Below are positions 49,657 through 62,988 of a stretch of DNA of 64,000 nucleotides, in pieces; the stretch's first letter is position 1; each line of letters opens with the position of its first letter. The notes below the pieces were generated by a model. It had not been told where the DNA came from and searched no databases. It was given only the letters and a program-made list of their open reading frames with translations. This DNA is from Kineosporia babensis. GTDB taxonomy: Bacteria; Actinomycetota; Actinomycetes; Actinomycetales; Kineosporiaceae. The position numbers were made by a program, and so were the translations under genes. The stretch spans positions 124,001-188,000 of the forward strand of contig NZ_JAJOMB010000010.1 of the NCBI RefSeq assembly GCF_021129305.1, given 5' to 3'.

Positions 49657-52600
49657 CTAGTCGCGGCGGATGACCGAGCGCAGCCAGTTGTGCCAGCCCG
49701 GACGGTTGACGGCGCGCTGCGCGCCACGGGGACGACGTAGTTGCGCGTCCTGCTCTTCGGCGGGGGCGGCCGGGGACTCGTCCTCGATCGGGGTTTCTGC
49801 AGTCCGGCCTTCTTCGGGGGTCAGGCCGTGGGGCGGGGTCAGGTCTCGCGGCATCACGCCGTGCGGCGGGGTACGGATCGGTGTCGGGCCCGACGGTAGT
49901 TCGGGGCGCTGACCTGGGCGGGCTGACGAGATGTAGCCGCCGAAGGCGCGCAGCCGCGAGCGCAGGTCTCGATCCGGGCCGCTTTCGCCCACGATCTTTC
50001 CGGGGACGATCTCGGGCTCGTTGGTGCTCAGCGGGAACGGGTCTGCTGCCAAGGTGGCGCCGGGCAAGGCGTTCTCCCAGAACTCGCGCAGTCCCCGGCG
50101 GTCCACCGGGCCGACCGCCGCCCGGATCTCCGCATCGACCAGTGCTGCCAGGTGACCGGCCAGCCGGGCTTGCGGGTCGTTCCTGCTTTGGTCCGGTTCG
50201 GAATTGGGGCCCGGGCCGATTCCGAACGGACCGGCCGAGGTGGTGCCCTCCGACTCGACCAGTTGACGCAGCACCGGCCCGATCGGCAACGCCGGCAGCC
50301 GGGGTACGTCGGTACCGGTGTCCGGCAGCGCCTGAGGCGACAGATCGCCCGGGTGCAGCATGGCCCGGGTGGAGGCGATCACGACCTCACCGGCCAGGCG
50401 ATGCTTGTTCTGCCGCAGCATGGCTCCGATCGAGGGCAAGGCTGCTTCCAGACCGAGTGGCACCGCTTCGCGCCAAGCACTGCCCACCGGCACCACGGGC
50501 AGTCGCGAGCGCAGCATGGTCTCGCGCTGGGCCGGTTCCGCGGCGATCGCCACCGCAAAGGCAGCCACCGCCACCCGGGGCGCGATCAGCCTGCGCTCGG
50601 TGCTGTCCAGGCCCGGCCAGGCGCGGTCGGCGAACATCAGCAGTTCGGCGGCGCGCCGGTGCAGCCCTTCGTCCTGCTCCGGCCAGCCCGGCCCGGTGAT
50701 GGCCAGCAGGTTGAGCAACTGGGCCTGGGCGTCGGTCACCCCGGCCCGGCGCGGGCGCTCACGGCCGGCGGCATCGCGGCGAGGCAGGAAGTCGATGCGC
50801 TTGAGCAGAGCCGCGGCCAGCCGGGCGCTGTCCAGGTCGTCCAGCCAGTCGCCCAGATGACGCAGCGCCACCGGAACCAGGTGCGGCGCCAGTTTCTCCG
50901 GCGCCGGCTCGGCGATCTGCAGCAACAACGCAGCGCTCCACGGCTCCCCCGCCGCCAGCCGATCGAAGATGCCGGCGACCAGCGGCTCCGGGTCGGCCTG
51001 GGGATTGGTGTCGACGGCAGTGCGCAGCAGATGCCGCACGGCCGGCCCCCGCAACCGTGGGTCTCCGACGATCCGGCCGGTGGCGCAGGCAACGGCCACC
51101 TCCAGCGCCACCCGGTCCGGGCCCCAGCCCAGATCGGCGGCGGCCAGTTCTTCGGGACGCAGTCGGGCCAGACGGTCTGCATCCACCGCGGGAGCGACTA
51201 AGGCCAGAACTGCCGCGGGAAGACGTTCGCCGGGAAGTACCCGGGAATGCAGCCAGCCGTCCGGGGCGTACCCGGTCTCGGCCAGGTGCGGAACGATCCA
51301 ACGAACGAGCGCGGCCGGGTCGAGCGGTCCGGCCAGTTCCGCGATCCGGGCCCCTAGTTCGACGGGCCCGTCGTACGCGTCGAACGGGTCACCGGGGTTG
51401 GTTGCGCCCGTGGGATTGAGCCCGCCGGTGGGGTTGTGGGCGCCCGTGGGGTTGTGGGCACCTGCGGGGTGATAGACACCCGTGGGATTGAGCCCGCCGG
51501 TGGGATTGTGGGCGCCCGACGGGCTGTGGATGTCCGTGGGGCCGTGGGCATCCGACGAGGTGTGGGCGCCCCTGGGGTCATGGACGTCCCTGGGGTCGTG
51601 GGCACCCGTGGGGTTGTAGGCGCCTGCGGAGTGATGGACGCCCGTGGGATTGAGCCCGCCGGTGGGATTGTGGGCGCCCGACGGGCTGTGGATGTCCGTG
51701 GGGCCGTGGGCATCCGACGAGGTGTGGACGTCCCTGGGGTCGTGGGCACCCGTGGGGGTGTGAGCGTCCGTGGGGTTGTGAGCGTCCGTGGGGTTGTGAG
51801 CGCCGTGGCCGCTCAGTGCATTGCGGGCGCCGAAGGTGTCGGGCGCGCCGGGAGTTCCGCGCTCAGGAGGGGTGTCATGGCCGCTGGGGGCGACGTGAGG
51901 GCTGCGGGGTTCACGGGTATCTGGTGCGTCGTGGGTGATGGGACGCACGGTTGAGGGGCCCGTGGGACGCGAAGGCGAGGCGTCCGCGGGGTGCGAAGGC
52001 GAGCCGTCCGCGGAGTGTGAAGGTGAGACGTCCGTCGGGTGCGAAGACGAGGTGTCCGCGGGGTGTGATGGCGAGACGTTCGCAGGGTGTGATGGCGAGG
52101 CGCTCGTCGGGTGCGAAGGGGAGGCGCCCGCGGAATGTGAACGTGAGACGTCCGTGGAGTGTGATGGCGCGGCGCCCGCGGAGGGTGAAGGCGGGGTGGT
52201 GGCGGGATGGTCGGTGCTGCCGCGGTCGTCCTCTGGCCTTGGGGCATTCTCGGGATTCTTCGGCGTGCGGGCACCCGCGACTCGGCGCGCGTGGAAGGCA
52301 CTGCCGGGGGTGTTCGCTGTACCGAACGCGCGGGAGGCTCCGGGCGCCAGGGGCTCTTCCGGAACGCCCGGCCAGCCTGATCCGGAGGAACGTTCATCGG
52401 CTCCCGGCCGGGCGGGGGCGATCTGGTTCGGCGAGATCTGCGGGGACGGCTCAACAACAGTTCTGGACACCAGCATGCGAGCCGCTCGGTCGGCCAGGAG
52501 TTCCAGGCCGGCGGCGGCCAGGTCGGGGCCGTGGACCAGGCGAGCGGTGCGGTGGGCGAAGTCGATGGCCCGGAGCAGGAGCACGCCGTGGCGGACGTCT

Positions 52601-53934
52601 GCTTCTCCGCCTGCGGCCGGGCGGGCCAGGCGGTCGGTGAGTTTGGCCAGGGGCGCGCGCAGGCGGCTGGCCAGACCGGGGTCGAAGCGGATGGTCTCGG
52701 GCAGGGGCGGGGCCTGGCGCAGGAGCCAGTCGTCGTCTTCCAGGGCCAGGTAGAGGTAGCTCTCGAACGCGGCCTGGACCAGGGCCGGGCGGGGTGGGTC
52801 GGACTGGCGGGCGGCGACCAGCCGGGTCCAGGCCTGCTCGGCGTTGTCCACCGTGGCGGCGACCAGCGCGGCCAGGGCAGCGGCAAGGTCGTCGGACAAC
52901 TGCAGGCTCAGCGGGGTGTCGCGCAGGATGATGCGGGTGGCCGTGGGCAGGGCCAGCGGAAGGCCCGGGGTAAGGGCGACGGCCGCGGCCAGGAACCAGG
53001 CGGCGCCCTGGATGTCGGGGCTGACGTCGGAAGCCGCGGTCCGACCGCCCGGCCACCAGTCTCCGCGCGGGCCGCCGGTGGGCGGGGTGGACAGGCTGAT
53101 CTCGTCGAGCCGGCGCAGGCAGCGCTCCAGGGCGCCGGATTCTTCGCAGACCGCGTCCAGGGCCAGGCGGGACCAGTCGGTGACCTGCACGCTCTGGCCC
53201 AGGTGGGTACGGCGGTGCGCCGGGCCGCCGGAGGCGACGAGGGTGGCCTCGACCCGCGGGTCCACCAGCACCACCGGCATCTGCTGGCCGCGGGGCAGAG
53301 TACGGGCCGAGTCCAGATCCGAATCGAGGATGACGCTGACCGTGGGGGTACGCCAGCCTTCCGGGTCGTCCTCCTGCAGGGCGGCCGAGATCAGGTCGCC
53401 TTCCCCGCCGGCCTCCGCGCTCGCCCGGGCCAGCACGTCGGTGAGGCGCTCGTAACTGGAGAAAGAGATGCGCAGGCTCACCGGGGGTGGAGCCAGAAAG
53501 CTGACCAAACCGATCCACCGCACCCCGACGTCTACCGTTGGGGCCGCCAGCACCACCGGGGGGCCGCCGGAGATCGCCGCCGCCACCGCGTCCATCAGCA
53601 GTCCGAGGGCGCCGAGCCGGAAGTCGGGGCCACCGACGAAGTCGACCACCTGAGCCCGGTCGACCGCATGGCCACCGGGCAGCGCTACTGGCGCCCCCTC
53701 GTCCTCAAGCGAGATCAGGGAGCCGAACATCTGGGCGTACCGCACCACCGGAGCACTCGGCGGGCGCAGCCACTGACGCGCACCCCACAACTCGACCGGG
53801 CGGACGAAACCGGGGGCCTGCGAGCGGCTCACCGCGTCGGGGTCGACCAGGACATGGCTGTGGGAGCGGTCCTGGTAGTACCAGACCGCGTCCTGCCCAC
53901 GGAGGGTGAACCTCATCCGTGGATCGCGAACCAC
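49657..53934 (-). CDS. GAP1-like (GTPase-associated protein) with repeat-rich linker
   Basis: 1425-aa cytoplasmic protein, no signal peptide or membrane segment. Residues about 100-180 (GLLMDAVAAAISGG ... VRWIGLVSFLAPPPVSLRISFSSYERL) resemble the middle domain of actinobacterial GTPase-associated protein 1. A disordered linker at about 515-860 holds an 8-residue repeat array (585-656) and a 6-residue array (711-848). Residues 860-1250 form an alpha-helical domain of HEAT-like or GAP1-C-like character. The start is GTG at 53934 or ATG at 53916. Partner GTPase genes are not next to it. The family call is my recognition, not a search. Confidence 0.6.
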   Translation of the reverse strand: MVRDPRMRFTLRGQDAVWYYQDRSHSHVLVDPDAVSRSQAPGFVRPVELWGARQWLRPPSAPVVRYAQMFGSLISLEDEGAPVALPGGHAVDRAQVVDFVGGPDFRLGALGLLMDAVAAAISGGPPVVLAAPTVDVGVRWIGLVSFLAPPPVSLRISFSSYERLTDVLARASAEAGGEGDLISAALQEDDPEGWRTPTVSVILDSDLDSARTLPRGQQMPVVLVDPRVEATLVASGGPAHRRTHLGQSVQVTDWSRLALDAVCEESGALERCLRRLDEISLSTPPTGGPRGDWWPGGRTAASDVSPDIQGAAWFLAAAVALTPGLPLALPTATRIILRDTPLSLQLSDDLAAALAALVAATVDNAEQAWTRLVAARQSDPPRPALVQAAFESYLYLALEDDDWLLRQAPPLPETIRFDPGLASRLRAPLAKLTDRLARPAAGGEADVRHGVLLLRAIDFAHRTARLVHGPDLAAAGLELLADRAARMLVSRTVVEPSPQISPNQIAPARPGADERSSGSGWPGVPEEPLAPGASRAFGTANTPGSAFHARRVAGARTPKNPENAPRPEDDRGSTDHPATTPPSPSAGAAPSHSTDVSRSHSAGASPSHPTSASPSHPANVSPSHPADTSSSHPTDVSPSHSADGSPSHPADASPSRPTGPSTVRPITHDAPDTREPRSPHVAPSGHDTPPERGTPGAPDTFGARNALSGHGAHNPTDAHNPTDAHTPTGAHDPRDVHTSSDAHGPTDIHSPSGAHNPTGGLNPTGVHHSAGAYNPTGAHDPRDVHDPRGAHTSSDAHGPTDIHSPSGAHNPTGGLNPTGVYHPAGAHNPTGAHNPTGGLNPTGATNPGDPFDAYDGPVELGARIAELAGPLDPAALVRWIVPHLAETGYAPDGWLHSRVLPGERLPAAVLALVAPAVDADRLARLRPEELAAADLGWGPDRVALEVAVACATGRIVGDPRLRGPAVRHLLRTAVDTNPQADPEPLVAGIFDRLAAGEPWSAALLLQIAEPAPEKLAPHLVPVALRHLGDWLDDLDSARLAAALLKRIDFLPRRDAAGRERPRRAGVTDAQAQLLNLLAITGPGWPEQDEGLHRRAAELLMFADRAWPGLDSTERRLIAPRVAVAAFAVAIAAEPAQRETMLRSRLPVVPVGSAWREAVPLGLEAALPSIGAMLRQNKHRLAGEVVIASTRAMLHPGDLSPQALPDTGTDVPRLPALPIGPVLRQLVESEGTTSAGPFGIGPGPNSEPDQSRNDPQARLAGHLAALVDAEIRAAVGPVDRRGLREFWENALPGATLAADPFPLSTNEPEIVPGKIVGESGPDRDLRSRLRAFGGYISSARPGQRPELPSGPTPIRTPPHGVMPRDLTPPHGLTPEEGRTAETPIEDESPAAPAEEQDAQLRRPRGAQRAVNRPGWHNWLRSVIRRD
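51391..51804 (-). repeat. coding minisatellite, 23 units of 18 bp
   Basis: Exactly 414 bases encode 23 hexapeptides with consensus Gly/Asp-x-His-Asn/Asp/Ser-Pro-Thr. A higher-order duplication of nine units (162 bases) is visible: the block starting near 51490 recurs almost unchanged near 51652. Frame is kept throughout, so array length can change without breaking the gene. Confidence 0.9.
51967..52182 (-). repeat. coding minisatellite, 9 units of 24 bp
   Basis: 216 bases encode nine octapeptides with consensus Pro/Ser-Ala/Thr-Asp-x-Ser-Pro-Ser-His. It lies about 160 bases from the 18-bp array in the same reading frame but has an unrelated unit, so the two arrays arose independently. Confidence 0.88.
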
Positions 53935-56703: not shown

Positions 56704-59700
56704 TTGGAGAACCTGACCGTAGGCACAAACCCAGGCACCGACGTCAAGGCCGCCCCCTCTTCTGGCGATACCCCGAGCAACGGGGATTGCGAGGCGCCAG
56801 GAATGACGAACACGGAACCGGGGAACGGGAACGAGACCCGGGCCGAGAACACGGTTCCAGGACAGCGGCCGGCGGACGTCACCGCCGGTGCGGCCGGCCT
56901 GGCCCCGGGCGAGGTGCTGATCCACGACGACCAGTTCGGGCGGATCACCCGGATCGGCAGCGGCGAGGAAGCGCTGATCCGCCGGGAGATGCGCGGACCC
57001 AACGCCTCGGCGCGGGCCCGGCACGCGGCGGCGGTGATGGAGCGGCTGCGCGGGATCACCGGGGTGCCCCAGCTGGTCGACGGGGTGACCGGGCCGATCT
57101 ACCACGTGAAGGCGTTTCGCGGTAACTCGCTGCGCAAGCTCATGCTCAGCCAGACCTGGCACCTGGACCTGCCGGCGCTGGTCGACGTGGCGGTGGACCT
57201 GGCCGCCCTGATCACCCAGATCCACGCCCGCGGGGTGGTGCACCACGACCTCAGCCCCGACACGATTTTGCTCGTTGTGCCCCAGAACCGGCCGATGATC
57301 GTGAATTTCGACCGGGCGACCCTCTTTTCCGGGGAACAGCCGGGCTACTCGCACACCAATTCGATCGTGCACCGACTGGCCTACCTGGCCCCGGAACAGA
57401 CCGGGCGCACCGCCCAGCCGGTGGATCAGCGAGCCGACCTCTACGCCCTCGGCGTGGTGCTCTACGAGTTGTGCACCGGCGATCCACCTTTCGGGCGGGG
57501 CGAGAACGACGCACTCAGCCTGATGCGCGACCAGCTGGCCCGGATGCCCACTCCGGTGAGCCTGGTGAATCCGGCTTTTCCCCGGCCGTTCTCGGACATC
57601 CTGACCAAGCTGCTGGAGAAGGAGCCGGGGCGGCGTTACCAGAGCGCGGCCGGACTGCTGCACGACCTGAAGCGGCTGCGGCAGGAGATGGTGAAGGCGG
57701 GTGGCGGGCACGGCGGGCGGCAACTGGCCAAGATCGGCTCGTTCCTGCTGGGCGATCAGGACTTTCCGCATCAGCTCACCGGCCCCTCGCGGCTGTTCGC
57801 CCGGGATGCCGAGATTCAGCGTCTGCGTGAGGCTTTCGCCCAGGTCTGCGCGGGCGGCGCGAGCGGGATCCTGGTGGGTGGCCGCGCCGGCGTGGGTAAG
57901 ACGGCGCTGATCGACCAGCTGCGCCCGACCGTGGCCGCTTCCGGCGGCTGGTTCATCTCCGGCACGTTCGACGTGGCGGACTCCGACCTACGCTCGGACG
58001 CAGTGGTCGAGGCCCTGGGTGCGCTCGGCCGGATGCTGCTGGCCGAGCCGGACCATGCCCTGGTGGAACAGCGAAAGCGGTTGCGCAGCATGCTCGGCGG
58101 CAATGCCTCGCTGATCGCCGGGCTGGTGCCGGACCTGGCGCCGGTGCTCGGGGTGGCCGGGGACCCGCCGGTGGGTGATCCGCTGGAGGTGCAGAGCCGG
58201 GTACGCCAGGGCGCGCTGGACGTGCTGCGGGCCACCGCCTCCCGCCAGCGGCCGGTGGTGATGGTGCTGGACTCGCTGCAGTGGGCCGCGCCGTTCCCGC
58301 TCGGCCTGGTGGACGCGGTGCTGACCGGCAGCGACATCGACGGCCTGTTGCTGGTCGGGGCGTTTCGCGACGACCAGGTCGGGCCGGAGCACCCGATCAG
58401 TGCCCTGCTGCCGCGCTGGAGCCGGCTCGGGCTCTGGCCTCCGGTGGTCCGGCTGGACAACCTGGCCCGGGACGACCTGGCCGAGATGCTGGGCGAGATG
58501 CTCCGGCTGGACCGGCGGGAATCGGCGCGGCTGGCCGACGTGGTCGGGGCCCGGACCCGGGGCAACCCGTACGAGACGATCGAACTGCTGAACGCGCTGC
58601 GGGCCGAGGGTTCGCTGCGGCTCGGGGAGGCGGGCTGGACCTGGGACGCCGCGACGATCCGGGGCCGGCTGGTCGGCGAGAAGAGCGCCGGGGACCTGCT
58701 GGCGACCCAGTTGCGGCGGCTGCCCGACCCGACCGTGGCGGTGCTGGAGGTACTGGCCGGGCTGGGGCAGAAGTGCGCTCCGGCCACTCTGGCCCGGGCG
58801 GCCGGGATGCCGGTGGAGGAGCTGGAGGAACGGCTGGAACCGGCCCTCACCGACGGGCTGGTGGTGACCACCACCGGCGACCCGGAGGGGCATTCGATGA
58901 TCCGGTTCCGGCACGAGCGCAGCCGTCAGCTGGTGCGGACCCGGCTCGGGGTGGAGGCCGAGCGGCTGCTGCACCTGACCATCGCGCACCGGCTGGCCGA
59001 CGATCCGCGGCATCTGACCACCGCCGCCGCGCAGTACGTGGCGGCGTTGTCGGAACTGGTGGAGCCCAATGAGAGACGTCGGGCGGCCGATCTGCTGGAA
59101 CGCGCCGGATCGGCGATCCGGGTGACGAATCCGGTCACCGCCGAACGGTTTTACGCGGCGGGGCGGGAACTGCTGAGCGGTACCGAGAACCCGGAAGACG
59201 ACGAGCTGCGGCTGAAGCTCGACCTGGAGCGCCACCGCACGGTCTACGGTCTGGGTGAGCTGGACCTGATGGATGCGCTGTTCGAGGCGCTGAACCAGCG
59301 CTGCGACGACCCGGTCCGGCTGAACGAGGCGACCTGCCTGCAGATCTCGGCCGACATCAACCGGGGACGAGTGGCCGAGGCGCTGGCGCTGGGCCGTCGG
59401 CAGATGGAACGGCTGGGCAGCCCGATCCCACCGACCGAGGAGCTGTCCGGCATCGTCGAGGCCGGGATGCCGGCCTTCGGCGCCTGGGCCCGGGAGAACG
59501 ACCTGACCGGCGACCTGGGCCGGCCGGAGGTGACCGACCCGCTGGTCCGGGCCCGGGCCGCGGTGATCCGCCGGCTCAACCCGGCCGCCTATTTCGTGGA
59601 CCACGACCTGCTCGGCTGGCTGGTCCTGACCAGCTACCGGATGTGGGCCGAGCACGGCCCGCAACGCCAGCTGGTGGAGGCGCTCTCGCACGGGGCGCTG

Positions 59701-62700
59701 CTGACGATCGGCCGTGACCAGGACTACCGGACCGGCTACCAGGTGGTCAACCGGGTGCTGGCGACCAGCGCCGAGCGCGGCTACGAGCCCGAGACCTCGC
59801 ACGCCCGCTTCCTTTCCGGTTCCACCGCGCGGCCCTGGTTCGAGCCGCTGGAGGCCGCGATCGCCGACCTGCAGCAGGCCGAGTCGGGGCTGCTGCGCGG
59901 CGGGGAACCGCAGACCGCAGCGTTCAGTTACGGCTCGCTGTGCGCCTCGATGCTCGACTTCAGCCCGGACCTGAGCGGTCTGCTGAACACCGTGGACCAG
60001 GGCCTGGCGCTGGCCGGCCGGATGGGCAACGACGCGGCCCGGCAGATGATCGTCTCCTACCACGAGTTCGTCTGGGCCCTGCAGGGCAACCAGGCGCCGG
60101 ACCTGAGCACCGAGACCCCGCTGGTGGTCCCGGCCGCAGTGGTGAACCACCACATCACCTGGGCGTTGCTGGCCGCGATCCTGGACGACGAGGAGGCGCT
60201 GCAGGCCCACCTGGACGAGGTGATGCCGCGGTTCGCCTACGTGGAGAGCCTGTACAGCGGTTCGCAGGCGCATCTGCTGAACGCGCTGCGGCTGGCCCGC
60301 AAGGGCGATCCGGCGGTGGCCGAGAGCCGGGACTGGCTGGCCCGCCGGGCCGAGGACCTGCCGGCCTCGTTCGCCCACCTGGTGTCCTGGATCGACGCCG
60401 AAGTGGCCTGGGCCGCAGGCGATCCGCAGACCGCGATGAAGCACTTCGACGACGCGATCCTGCACACCCCCGCGCTGCGCGGCTGGCACCGGGCCATGGT
60501 CACCGAGCGGGCCGGGAAGTTCCGGCTCTCGCAGGGACACGAGTACGGCGCCCGGGGCATGCTCACCCTGGCCCTGGACTCCTACCTGAGCTGGGGCGCG
60601 GCGCTGAAGGTCGAGCAGTTGCGGCAGCAGTACCCGTTCCTGCGGGTGGGGACCGCCAAGCCGGAGCTGCACTACCGGGCGGAAGCCGGCCCGCCGGCGC
60701 CCGACGACCAGGACGCGGTCGACCTGCTCGCGGTGCTGACCGCCTCGCAGGCGATCGGCAAGGAGACCGGTTTCGACCAGCTGCACGCCCGGGTGGTCGA
60801 GGTGCTCACCGCGATGACCGGAGCCACCGACGTCACCGTGCTGCTGCGGGACGAGGCCGGGGGCTGGACGGTGCCCGGCCGCAGCACCGAGAACGCCTTC
60901 CCGGTCTCGGCCTTCCGCTACGCCGAGCGCACCGGCGAGCCGCTGCTGGTCGCCGACGCCACCCAGGACGACCGGTTCAGTGCCGACGAGTACCTCAGCA
61001 GCCTGCCCTGCTGCGCCCTGATGGTGGTGCCGATCCGCGCCCAGGGCGAGACCACGCTGGTCCTGGTGCTGGAGAACCACCTGCACCGCAACGCCTTCTC
61101 GCCCGACCGGCTGGACGCGGTCCGGCTGGTGGCCGGGCAGCTGGCCGTCTCGTTCGAGAACGCCCTGGCCCGCCGCCGGACCGAGGACGAGGCCCGACAG
61201 CGGGAGAAGCTGCTGGAGACCGTCCGCCAGCGCGAGCGTCTGCTGGAGACCCTGCTGGCGATCCAGCGCGACATCTCGCACCGGGTGCCGCTGCAGCTGG
61301 TGATGGACGCGGTCACCGAGGGCGCCTCCGGCATGCTCGAGGGCGCGTTCGTGGCCCTGGTGCTGCTGGACCCGCAGGGCAGCGACCGGCCGAACATCCC
61401 CTCGGTGAGCGGGCACCGGGCCGGTTCCGAGACCGACGAGGCGGTGCTGCGGATGGCCGGGGCCGCGGTGGCCGCCGACGAGCTGGTGGCCGCCCAGGCC
61501 GACGGCGAGGACACCACCGGTTCGGTCACCCTGATCGCCGCGCCGGTGCACGTCAGCGGGCGGATCATCGGCAGCCTGGTGACCAGTGCCCCGGAGCGGC
61601 TGGGGGCCGAGGACTGGCGGCAGGACCTGCTGGGCGCCTTCGCCGAGCAGGTCAGCCTGGCCCTGAACGACGCCAGCACGCTGGAGGCGATCCGGGAGGC
61701 CTCGTACGACTCACTCACCGGGCTGGCCAACCGTTCGCTGTTCCTGGACCGGCTGAAGCAGGCGCTCTCCGCAGATGGGATTCACGAGACCCAGAGCATC
61801 GAGGTGAGCGTGCTGTTCATCGACCTCGACCGGTTCAAGGCGGTGAACGACACGCTGGGGCACGGCGCCGGCGACGAGCTGCTGGCCGAGGTGGCCCGCC
61901 GGCTGCGTGAGTGCATCCGGGACTCCGACACCGTGGCCCGGCTCGGCGGGGACGAGTTCGCGGTGCTGATGGAGGGCACCAAGGGCCCGGCCCCGGCGCT
62001 GCGCGCGGCCGAGCGGGTGATGGCGGCGCTGACCCGGCCGATCCGGCTGGGCGGGCGGGACATCTTCGTCTCGGCCAGCGTCGGGGTGGCCAACGGGGCG
62101 GCGGCCCAGCACGAGACCGGGGAGCTGCTGCGCCAGGCCGACCTGGCGATGTACCAGGCGAAGAAGGCCGGTTCGCGGCGGGCGGTGGTGTTCGAGCCGC
62201 AGATGCAGGCGGACGCCCGGGACCGGCTGGAGCTGCAGGGCGACCTGCGGCGGGCGCTCTCGGAAGGGCAGTTCGAGCTGGTCTACCAGCCCCTGATGGA
62301 CCTGCCGGGCCGCCGGCCGCTCGGGGTGGAGACGCTGATCCGCTGGCGGCACCCGGAGCGCGGGATGATCTCGCCGGCCTTGTTCGTGCCGATCGCCGAG
62401 GAGACCGGCGCGGTGATCGAGATGGGCCGCTGGGTGCTGGTCCAGAGCTGCCGGCAGGTGGCTGCCTGGCGCCGTGGGGGCTGGCCCGACCTGGGGCTGA
62501 ACATCAACGTCTCGGCCCGGCAGCTGTCCGACGGGGTGCTCGCCCAGGAGGTGATCAGCACCTTGGCCGAGACCGGGCTGCCGGCCTCGGCGCTGACCCT
62601 CGAGCTGACCGAGACGGTGCTGATGGAGGATCCGGAAGGGATCACCGCACAGTTGTCGGAGCTGCGCCGGCTCGGCGTGCAGGTCGGGATCGACGACTTC

Positions 62701-62988
62701 GGTACCGGCTACTCCTCGCTGTCCTACCTGCGGCGTTTCCCGGTGGACAAGCTGAAGATCGACAAGTCGTTCATCGACAACATCGAGACCGTCGAGGAGG
62801 ACCTGGCGATCGTGCGCACGGTGGTGGACCTGGCCCGGATCCTGTCGCTGGAGACCACCGCCGAGGGGATCGAGAGCCCGGCCCAGGCCGACCTGCTGCG
62901 CGACGTCGGCTGCGAGGTCGGCCAGGGCTACTACTTCGCCCGGCCGCTGCCCCCGGAGGAGATCCCCGGGTTCCTGTCCAGGTTCTAG
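56704..62988 (+). CDS. pseudokinase-STAND ATPase-GAF-GGDEF-EAL signalling protein
   Basis: 2094-aa cytoplasmic multidomain protein. A kinase-like domain spans about 60-330: the catalytic loop HHDLSPDT (Asp182) is kept, but Asn201 replaces the DFG aspartate and no VAIK lysine is evident. An AAA/STAND ATPase follows with Walker A GRAGVGKT (393-400) and Walker B Asp523. A long helical, TPR-like region (about 720-1330) and two GAF domains precede GGDEF (1748-1752), with inhibition-site RDSD at 1739-1742. The EAL domain has ETL at 1876-1878 and DDFGTGYSS from 1997. The TTG start is uncertain; ATG at 56803 is an alternative. Confidence 0.88.
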   Translation: MENLTVGTNPGTDVKAAPSSGDTPSNGDCEAPGMTNTEPGNGNETRAENTVPGQRPADVTAGAAGLAPGEVLIHDDQFGRITRIGSGEEALIRREMRGPNASARARHAAAVMERLRGITGVPQLVDGVTGPIYHVKAFRGNSLRKLMLSQTWHLDLPALVDVAVDLAALITQIHARGVVHHDLSPDTILLVVPQNRPMIVNFDRATLFSGEQPGYSHTNSIVHRLAYLAPEQTGRTAQPVDQRADLYALGVVLYELCTGDPPFGRGENDALSLMRDQLARMPTPVSLVNPAFPRPFSDILTKLLEKEPGRRYQSAAGLLHDLKRLRQEMVKAGGGHGGRQLAKIGSFLLGDQDFPHQLTGPSRLFARDAEIQRLREAFAQVCAGGASGILVGGRAGVGKTALIDQLRPTVAASGGWFISGTFDVADSDLRSDAVVEALGALGRMLLAEPDHALVEQRKRLRSMLGGNASLIAGLVPDLAPVLGVAGDPPVGDPLEVQSRVRQGALDVLRATASRQRPVVMVLDSLQWAAPFPLGLVDAVLTGSDIDGLLLVGAFRDDQVGPEHPISALLPRWSRLGLWPPVVRLDNLARDDLAEMLGEMLRLDRRESARLADVVGARTRGNPYETIELLNALRAEGSLRLGEAGWTWDAATIRGRLVGEKSAGDLLATQLRRLPDPTVAVLEVLAGLGQKCAPATLARAAGMPVEELEERLEPALTDGLVVTTTGDPEGHSMIRFRHERSRQLVRTRLGVEAERLLHLTIAHRLADDPRHLTTAAAQYVAALSELVEPNERRRAADLLERAGSAIRVTNPVTAERFYAAGRELLSGTENPEDDELRLKLDLERHRTVYGLGELDLMDALFEALNQRCDDPVRLNEATCLQISADINRGRVAEALALGRRQMERLGSPIPPTEELSGIVEAGMPAFGAWARENDLTGDLGRPEVTDPLVRARAAVIRRLNPAAYFVDHDLLGWLVLTSYRMWAEHGPQRQLVEALSHGALLTIGRDQDYRTGYQVVNRVLATSAERGYEPETSHARFLSGSTARPWFEPLEAAIADLQQAESGLLRGGEPQTAAFSYGSLCASMLDFSPDLSGLLNTVDQGLALAGRMGNDAARQMIVSYHEFVWALQGNQAPDLSTETPLVVPAAVVNHHITWALLAAILDDEEALQAHLDEVMPRFAYVESLYSGSQAHLLNALRLARKGDPAVAESRDWLARRAEDLPASFAHLVSWIDAEVAWAAGDPQTAMKHFDDAILHTPALRGWHRAMVTERAGKFRLSQGHEYGARGMLTLALDSYLSWGAALKVEQLRQQYPFLRVGTAKPELHYRAEAGPPAPDDQDAVDLLAVLTASQAIGKETGFDQLHARVVEVLTAMTGATDVTVLLRDEAGGWTVPGRSTENAFPVSAFRYAERTGEPLLVADATQDDRFSADEYLSSLPCCALMVVPIRAQGETTLVLVLENHLHRNAFSPDRLDAVRLVAGQLAVSFENALARRRTEDEARQREKLLETVRQRERLLETLLAIQRDISHRVPLQLVMDAVTEGASGMLEGAFVALVLLDPQGSDRPNIPSVSGHRAGSETDEAVLRMAGAAVAADELVAAQADGEDTTGSVTLIAAPVHVSGRIIGSLVTSAPERLGAEDWRQDLLGAFAEQVSLALNDASTLEAIREASYDSLTGLANRSLFLDRLKQALSADGIHETQSIEVSVLFIDLDRFKAVNDTLGHGAGDELLAEVARRLRECIRDSDTVARLGGDEFAVLMEGTKGPAPALRAAERVMAALTRPIRLGGRDIFVSASVGVANGAAAQHETGELLRQADLAMYQAKKAGSRRAVVFEPQMQADARDRLELQGDLRRALSEGQFELVYQPLMDLPGRRPLGVETLIRWRHPERGMISPALFVPIAEETGAVIEMGRWVLVQSCRQVAAWRRGGWPDLGLNINVSARQLSDGVLAQEVISTLAETGLPASALTLELTETVLMEDPEGITAQLSELRRLGVQVGIDDFGTGYSSLSYLRRFPVDKLKIDKSFIDNIETVEEDLAIVRTVVDLARILSLETTAEGIESPAQADLLRDVGCEVGQGYYFARPLPPEEIPGFLSRF

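Follow-up and report, generated by a model that had tools for sequence, protein, structure and literature searches.

A Kineosporia protein that joins a degenerate kinase and a STAND-like ATPase to a GGDEF-EAL output

The closest described proteins are plasmid-encoded and annotated as 'trifunctional serine/threonine-protein kinase/ATP-binding ...' or 'ATP-binding sensor histidine kinase' in Bradyrhizobium, Microvirga and Leptolyngbya. They share a chassis of kinase, AAA_16 ATPase, helical repeat and GAF domain, and their output is a histidine kinase, HATPase_c being found by Pfam in 5/5 of the plasmid relatives scanned (L135-L138 and L140; such labels are our handles for loci, and G, C, f and g labels stand for genomes, contigs, families and genera). 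The gene described here lies at 56704-62988 (+) in a 64,000-nucleotide stretch of the genome of the soil actinomycete Kineosporia babensis (G000:C2:124001-188000 of the 9.4 Mb assembly), called the window below. Its product has the same chassis but ends in a GGDEF-EAL pair, the domains for synthesis and hydrolysis of cyclic di-GMP (c-di-GMP). Our preferred reading, to which we give about even weight, is that this is one intact Kineosporia protein in which a non-phosphorylating sensor and a STAND-like switch would tip a two-way pair of c-di-GMP enzymes towards synthesis or hydrolysis.

Other known systems share parts of this design. The GGDEF-EAL output module is also present in the enzymes of PDB entries 4rnh and 5m3c, which we take to be MorA, where the sensor part differs. 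The idea of combining kinase, ATPase and cyclase is found in the TOMM system kinase/cyclase fusion TIGR03903, which uses a different type of cyclase; the window protein reaches 99.1 bits against this profile, with the best stretch at residues 364-766, far under its cut-off of 705.75. The closest chassis belongs to giant proteins ending in GGDEF only, namely L056-L058 of Kineosporiaceae (38-39% identity) and the genes of f106, a family that we guess is probably Frankiaceae. They match the window protein in domain order as far as GAF 1 and keep the kinase Lys, Asn and DFG Asp, but carry one GGDEF (GGEEF in L056-L058) and no EAL, and L056-L058, unlike the window protein, are without a second GAF.

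The complete layout is not unique and recurs in bacteria. Coverage outside the phylum consisted of a collection of 72,556 plasmid records. A tblastn search with the front half of the protein matched 445 of them, 13 with at least 80% cover; four Leptolyngbya rows among these 13 are annotated as sensor or two-component kinases and the others have no useful annotation. Among the matches listed, the plasmid genes are 23-36% identical to the front half over up to 89% of its length (E 2e-88). With the whole window protein as query no plasmid record reached 80% cover (63-65% among the matches listed), and with the whole of L059, a protein from another Kineosporiaceae genus, three records had at least 80% cover. 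Two of these three are single genes, found in Acaryochloris sp. 'Moss Beach' (L203, WP_235112176.1) and Legionella lytica (L204, WP_252582722.1) and both annotated 'EAL domain-containing protein'. According to Pfam they encode Pkinase-AAA_16-GAF-GGDEF-EAL in one chain, with a PAS domain before the GGDEF in L203, which is the layout of the window protein. They differ from it in having an intact kinase (K, D, N and DFS) and a chassis on a different branch. Since both keep these residues, a protein with an EAL output need not have a dead kinase. L059 also has the same domain order on a different chassis branch. The novelty that the first-pass annotation saw in the layout is therefore not supported, and an architecture confined to this protein was rejected. 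The same annotation regarded histidine kinases as the main output of such fusions, which holds for the five plasmid relatives scanned and fails for the near relatives in Actinomycetota, where the output is GGDEF (27/28 genes of f106, and L056-L058) or a class III cyclase (5/5 genes of genus g38). A literature search found no description of a kinase-ATPase-GAF-GGDEF-EAL protein within one paper collection and the terms chosen, judged mostly from listings.

The reading frame is open over 2,094 codons counted from TTG 56704, and residue numbers are given on that count. The true start is probably ATG 56803 (residue 34), giving 2,061 amino acids, because the MTNTEPG start is aligned in 5/5 orthologues and is preceded by the conserved GGGGATTGCGAGGC in all of them. 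Pfam finds, in order, Pkinase (150-317), AAA_16 (363-550), about 800 residues with no match at E 0.01, GAF (1362-1483, with two stretches), GGDEF (1666-1825) and EAL (1847-2081), every match exceeding the curated cut-off. The domain order proposed from first inspection of the sequence stands, with corrected boundaries: GGDEF begins at 1666 rather than 1680, residues 1340-1650 hold two GAF domains, and the start is moved from the TTG to the ATG.

Five of six genomes in the genus carry the gene (the own genome, G001, G003, G004 and G005), with an identical Pfam domain order in the other four. The orthologues are 72-79% identical to the window protein in the front half and 75-81% over the whole frame. 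The ratio of nonsynonymous to synonymous substitution (dN/dS, Nei-Gojobori) stays under 1 for each of the nine segments in every one of the 10 orthologue pairs. Because of this conservation the frame is neither chance nor artefact, and a frame error or a fusion of separate genes by sequencing errors, raised earlier as a possible flaw, is excluded. The lowest ratios are found in the EAL domain (0.14-0.23) and the kinase C-lobe (0.16-0.34); they are 0.21-0.46 in the AAA region, 0.26-0.42 in GGDEF, 0.29-0.50 in the GAFs, 0.26-0.60 in the kinase N-lobe, 0.28-0.56 in the N-terminal tail and 0.42-0.61 in the helical repeat. Between the window gene and L077, dS is 0.26-0.54, and such values are rough in a high-GC genome. 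A scan of genome contigs gave K. rhizophila plus a 33-residue match in Treponema, and there was no profile match in that Treponema genome.

The output looks intact at both ends. The GGDEF motif is preceded by an RDSD inhibition site (I-site, R1739-D1742) that stands five residues ahead of it. Among PDB entries the output matches 4rnh, 'Motility regulator', best (E 1.1e-122), and 5m3c matches with E 1e-104. In the alignment to 4rnh the E-x-L, DDFG, KID, AEG and QGY stretches, which hold the metal-binding and catalytic signature residues of EAL domains, are all matched. The earlier view that the GGDEF core, the inhibition site and the EAL key residues are preserved agrees with this alignment and with Pfam, and both cyclase and phosphodiesterase activities are predicted from these intact-looking signatures. 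Upstream of the output, the second GAF is confined to the orthologues and L054 among the 11 rows of alignment A1, and the two GAFs have a charged linker. At E <= 0.001 the own genome gives 44 matches to EAL. It also encodes a 1,958-amino-acid EAL protein (L071:5779-11655 (-), contig C1) whose N-terminal part is very long and of low complexity.

It is possible, though we would not favour it, that the protein is effectively a regulated phosphodiesterase whose GGDEF domain mainly senses GTP or c-di-GMP and tunes the EAL domain. In tandem GGDEF-EAL proteins one of the two activities often dominates, and EAL is the most conserved domain here, with a mean identity over the 10 orthologue pairs of 90% as against 86% in GGDEF and the lower dN/dS of the two. 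On the other hand, the GGDEF signature and I-site are canonical, and the output of the nearest chassis relatives is GGDEF alone.

Pfam matches the kinase domain mostly over its C-lobe, and phmmer matches it to PknB with E 1.2e-19. On a common alignment three of the four catalytic residues are lost in 5/5 orthologues (Table 1). The first-pass annotation had read a retained Asp182, an Asn at the DFG position and a missing lysine from the window sequence, and these are borne out. Misalignment, which it feared, does not explain them, as near relatives keep the Lys, the Asn and the DFG Asp where the orthologues have lost them. In L056-L058, which end in GGDEF, and in L055, which is short at a contig end so that its output is not seen, the K, D, N and DFG D are present together with the Walker B DD in 4/4. 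The 28 f106 genes examined all have the beta-3 K, the Asn, the DFG Asp and the DD, and 22/28 have the HRD Asp. In the other six (L167, L169, L174, L176, L184 and L188) Asn replaces the HRD Asp, with Lys, catalytic-loop Asn and DFG Asp kept. Among EAL-bearing relatives, the DFG Asp is the only one of the four catalytic residues left in L054, where Lys, the HRD Asp and Asn are gone, and L059 has none of the four. An AlphaFold2 model of the kinase made from a two-row alignment had a mean predicted confidence score (pLDDT) of 43, too low for use. The residue pattern supports reading the domain as a pseudokinase.

That the domain is still catalytic in a non-canonical way, by another metal or lysine arrangement or by a different transfer reaction using Asp182, seems improbable to us. 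The conservation of Asp182 in 5/5 orthologues and the constraint on the C-lobe would fit such activity, but the beta-3 Lys, the Asn and the DFG Asp are gone from 5/5 and are all kept in near relatives.

In the ATPase, Walker A is intact, with its Lys in 5/5 orthologues. The second acid of Walker B, which has a role in ATP hydrolysis, is Asp in 40/40 other rows of the chassis and in 7/9 distant paralogues; in 5/5 orthologues it is Ser. For these reasons the P-loop is likely to bind ATP, and efficient hydrolysis is doubtful. A conformational change driven by ATP, as first suggested, can therefore not be upheld as stated. The region that follows is predicted to be all-helical with low confidence (AlphaFold2, two rows, mean pLDDT 48). 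In the matching region of the plasmid relatives, TPR_CHK1 is found above its cut-off in L136 and below it in L135.

The distribution of the chassis in Actinomycetota was examined with a nine-row profile, A2, covering residues 608-1319, in which the window protein is row 1. Across the phylum 15/396 genomes matched at 1e-20. Matches spanning nearly the full profile came from the own genome, five genomes of genus g38 and G309; in the remaining eight genomes less than half of the profile was matched. Within the class there were matches in 23/394 genomes at 1e-30, comprising the own genome, five of g38 and 17 of f106; within the family 10/13 genomes matched at 1e-10, and within f106 17/35 at 1e-100. 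The f106 gene set comprises 28 of the 29 genes listed, and further f106 matches were judged by open-frame length only (the largest listed is 1,878 amino acids). Pfam finds Pkinase and AAA_16 in 28/28 of these genes, GGDEF in 27/28 (not in the frame of L192) and EAL in 0/28. The EAL-bearing chassis members found in the phylum are the orthologue group, L054, which is a paralogue in G003, and L059. The chassis has expanded in f106, in G726 among other genomes, with up to eight matches per genome and none in 18/35 genomes at 1e-100. In five g38 genomes, of the same class, the genes L123-L127 encode AAA_16-repeat-GAF-class III cyclase with no kinase (5/5). Histidine kinase, cyclase and GGDEF labels that had been assigned to relatives from motifs or by inspection were upheld by Pfam. 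The own genome has two further giants with the order Pkinase-AAA_16-GAF-GGDEF, L066:3057-8504 (-) on C67 and L067:3620-9001 (+) on C10, and the HRD, Asn and DFG residues of both are intact.

Chassis and output have different histories in quick trees, for which SH-aLRT (approximate likelihood-ratio test) support only was calculated. In the tree of the ATPase plus repeat, the window clade with L054 (96, starred) shares a fork with the GGDEF-only rows of Kineosporiaceae and f106 (100, starred), within which the tree does not order the EAL clade, L057 and the remaining GGDEF-only rows. In this tree L059 pairs with a Paraburkholderia gene (97 and 95, both starred) and L203 and L204 group with a Leptolyngbya gene (99, starred); L128, L059, L054 and L138 are long branches. 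In the tree of the GGDEF domain, a set of 11 GGDEF-only rows excludes the window clade (97, starred), which adjoins the ordinary GGDEF-EAL proteins of its own genome (82, not starred); the GGDEF-only row L128 is also outside that set. Because related chassis carry GGDEF domains of different descent, the trees indicate that outputs were exchanged between the window clade and its GGDEF-only relatives. A gain of GGDEF-EAL by Kineosporia is the simpler reading, though not forced, because the giants L066 and L067 of the same genome carry the GGDEF-only type. Over the 22 rows the starred branches force the EAL label to have been gained or lost at least three times. How many separate joins took place is not forced, and a single old join followed by losses could account for L059, L203 and L204.

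Within Kineosporiaceae the kinase is degenerate in 7/7 EAL-bearing proteins and intact in 3/3 GGDEF-only proteins and L055. Of all nine EAL-bearing proteins examined seven are degenerate, and five of the seven are orthologues that count as one event. We rejected the idea that an EAL output always goes with a pseudokinase, and only with one; it is broken by L203 and L204 (EAL, intact) and by L128 (GGDEF only, degenerate).

To return to the sensor and switch acting on a two-way enzyme pair, the protein would work as follows. On the chassis of kinase, STAND-like ATPase, helical repeat and GAF, the output consists of a GAF-GGDEF-EAL module akin to ordinary GGDEF-EAL proteins of Kineosporia. The degenerate kinase would no longer phosphorylate and might act as a ligand- or partner-binding head. 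ATP bound at the P-loop may make the ATPase a slow, latched switch of conformation or oligomerisation, as in STAND proteins, with the helical repeat and the GAFs taking in signals; this model of assembly comes from knowledge of the STAND family. Assembly through the GAF linker would pair GGDEF domains and favour c-di-GMP synthesis, the unassembled state would favour hydrolysis by EAL, and product inhibition at the RxxD site would limit the output. The net effect might be to raise or lower c-di-GMP, plausibly during the zoospore and motility life cycle of Kineosporia. Among actinobacteria, GGDEF proteins are most numerous in species that form zoospores, and the reference list of the paper that reports this includes a study of Kineosporia zoospores (PMC10746217).

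A more specific version is tentative. With both upstream ATP-consuming sites disabled and the output swapped for a two-way c-di-GMP module, a phosphorylating and ATP-hydrolysing cyclase controller may have become, in Kineosporia, an ATP-latched single-protein rheostat that does not phosphorylate and is governed by protein partners and ATP occupancy.

Several points weigh against a pseudokinase sensor with a STAND switch. Asp182 is kept, though a pure scaffold would not need it, and degenerate kinases such as SelO and SidJ can retain chemistry. The loss of kinase residues is not tied to the EAL output, and 4/5 of the histidine-kinase relatives scanned are without the beta-3 Lys and the DFG Asp. 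The STAND mechanism is suggested by family resemblance, the helical repeat is without a Pfam match, and both structure models are of low confidence (mean pLDDT 43 and 48).

The protein joins a Ser/Thr kinase fold, a STAND-like ATPase and c-di-GMP signalling in one chain. Close relatives whose kinase residues are intact and whose GGDEF stands alone can be compared with a clade in which the kinase looks dead, Walker B is altered and the output is GGDEF-EAL, and this forms a natural experiment. Two questions become testable: can c-di-GMP turnover be steered one way or the other by a STAND switch, and can a pseudokinase serve as an allosteric head in bacteria? The recurrence of the layout in unrelated bacteria tempers the surprise, and the window protein is an unusual variant rather than a new kind of system.

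Table 1. Position of the gene and of its domains and key residues in the window
Feature	Position	Strand	Evidence
Whole gene, likely ATG start (open reading frame extends to TTG 56704), 2,061 amino acids	56803..62988	+	Open reading frame list, alignment, orthologues
Degenerate protein kinase domain, residues ~78-325	56935..57678	+	Pfam Pkinase 150-317, E 1.4e-18; PK_Tyr_Ser-Thr 121-311; motif table
Arg94 at beta-3 Lys position	56983..56985	+	R in 5/5 orthologues
Asp182, retained HRD Asp (here HHD)	57247..57249	+	Kept in 5/5 orthologues
Thr187 at catalytic-loop Asn position	57262..57264	+	T in 2/5, V in 3/5 orthologues
Asn201 at DFG Asp position (NFD)	57304..57306	+	N in 5/5 orthologues
AAA_16 / STAND-like ATPase core, residues 363-550; Walker A GRAGVGKT 393-400	57790..58353	+	Pfam AAA_16, E 2.6e-22
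Walker B Asp523-Ser524 (DS instead of DD)	58270..58275	+	S524 in 5/5 orthologues
Post-AAA and helical-repeat (TPR-like) region, residues 608-1340	58525..60723	+	Profile searches; helical low-confidence prediction
GAF 1, residues ~1345-1487	60736..61164	+	Pfam GAF 1362-1483, E 1.1e-20
GAF 2, residues ~1514-1650	61243..61653	+	Second Pfam GAF stretch; alignment
GGDEF diguanylate cyclase domain; GGDEF 1748-1752, I-site RDSD 1739-1742	61699..62178	+	Pfam, E 9.8e-46
EAL phosphodiesterase domain; E1876 (ETL), DDFGTG at 1997	62242..62946	+	Pfam, E 2.5e-74

The surroundings of the gene are conserved in the genus. In G003, G004 and G005, as in the window, it lies between menB, a small open reading frame and an LLM gene on one side and a conserved neighbour, menE and menA on the other; these gene names were assigned by reading the sequence. 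In G001 the contig begins just upstream, the small frame is present, the LLM gene is absent and the downstream genes match. In G002 the giant gene is missing: menB and the small frame are followed by a stretch of the LLM gene, about 74 codons long, and then by the downstream neighbour, which is 97% identical. The last two matches there, the LLM remnant and the downstream neighbour, are 11 bases apart (L200:15104-15337), and the locus is an apparent deletion scar of the giant gene. That the gene is decaying, the kinase and Walker B losses preceding a gene loss already seen in G002 beside the remnant of its neighbour, is very unlikely, since the frame is open and of similar length in five species with dN/dS below 1 in every segment, and Walker A, GGDEF and EAL are intact.

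About 3 kb beyond the right end of the window, just downstream of menA, lies a gene for an 818-amino-acid GGDEF-EAL-like protein (L072:6966-9422 (+)). Its motifs are degenerate, with SRHQF for GGDEF and LSDFGGGG for the DDFG stretch, and it is possibly a c-di-GMP receptor. It is matched at the same place in G001 and, within the limits of the sequence retrieved, in G004 and G005; the identity in G008 is 41%. On the other side, beside menB, the window has an open reading frame of 1,425 amino acids at 49657-53934 (-). Its first 470 residues are 73-78% identical between species and, after residue ~470, it has a long low-complexity middle with SHPTD/HNPTGAH repeats.

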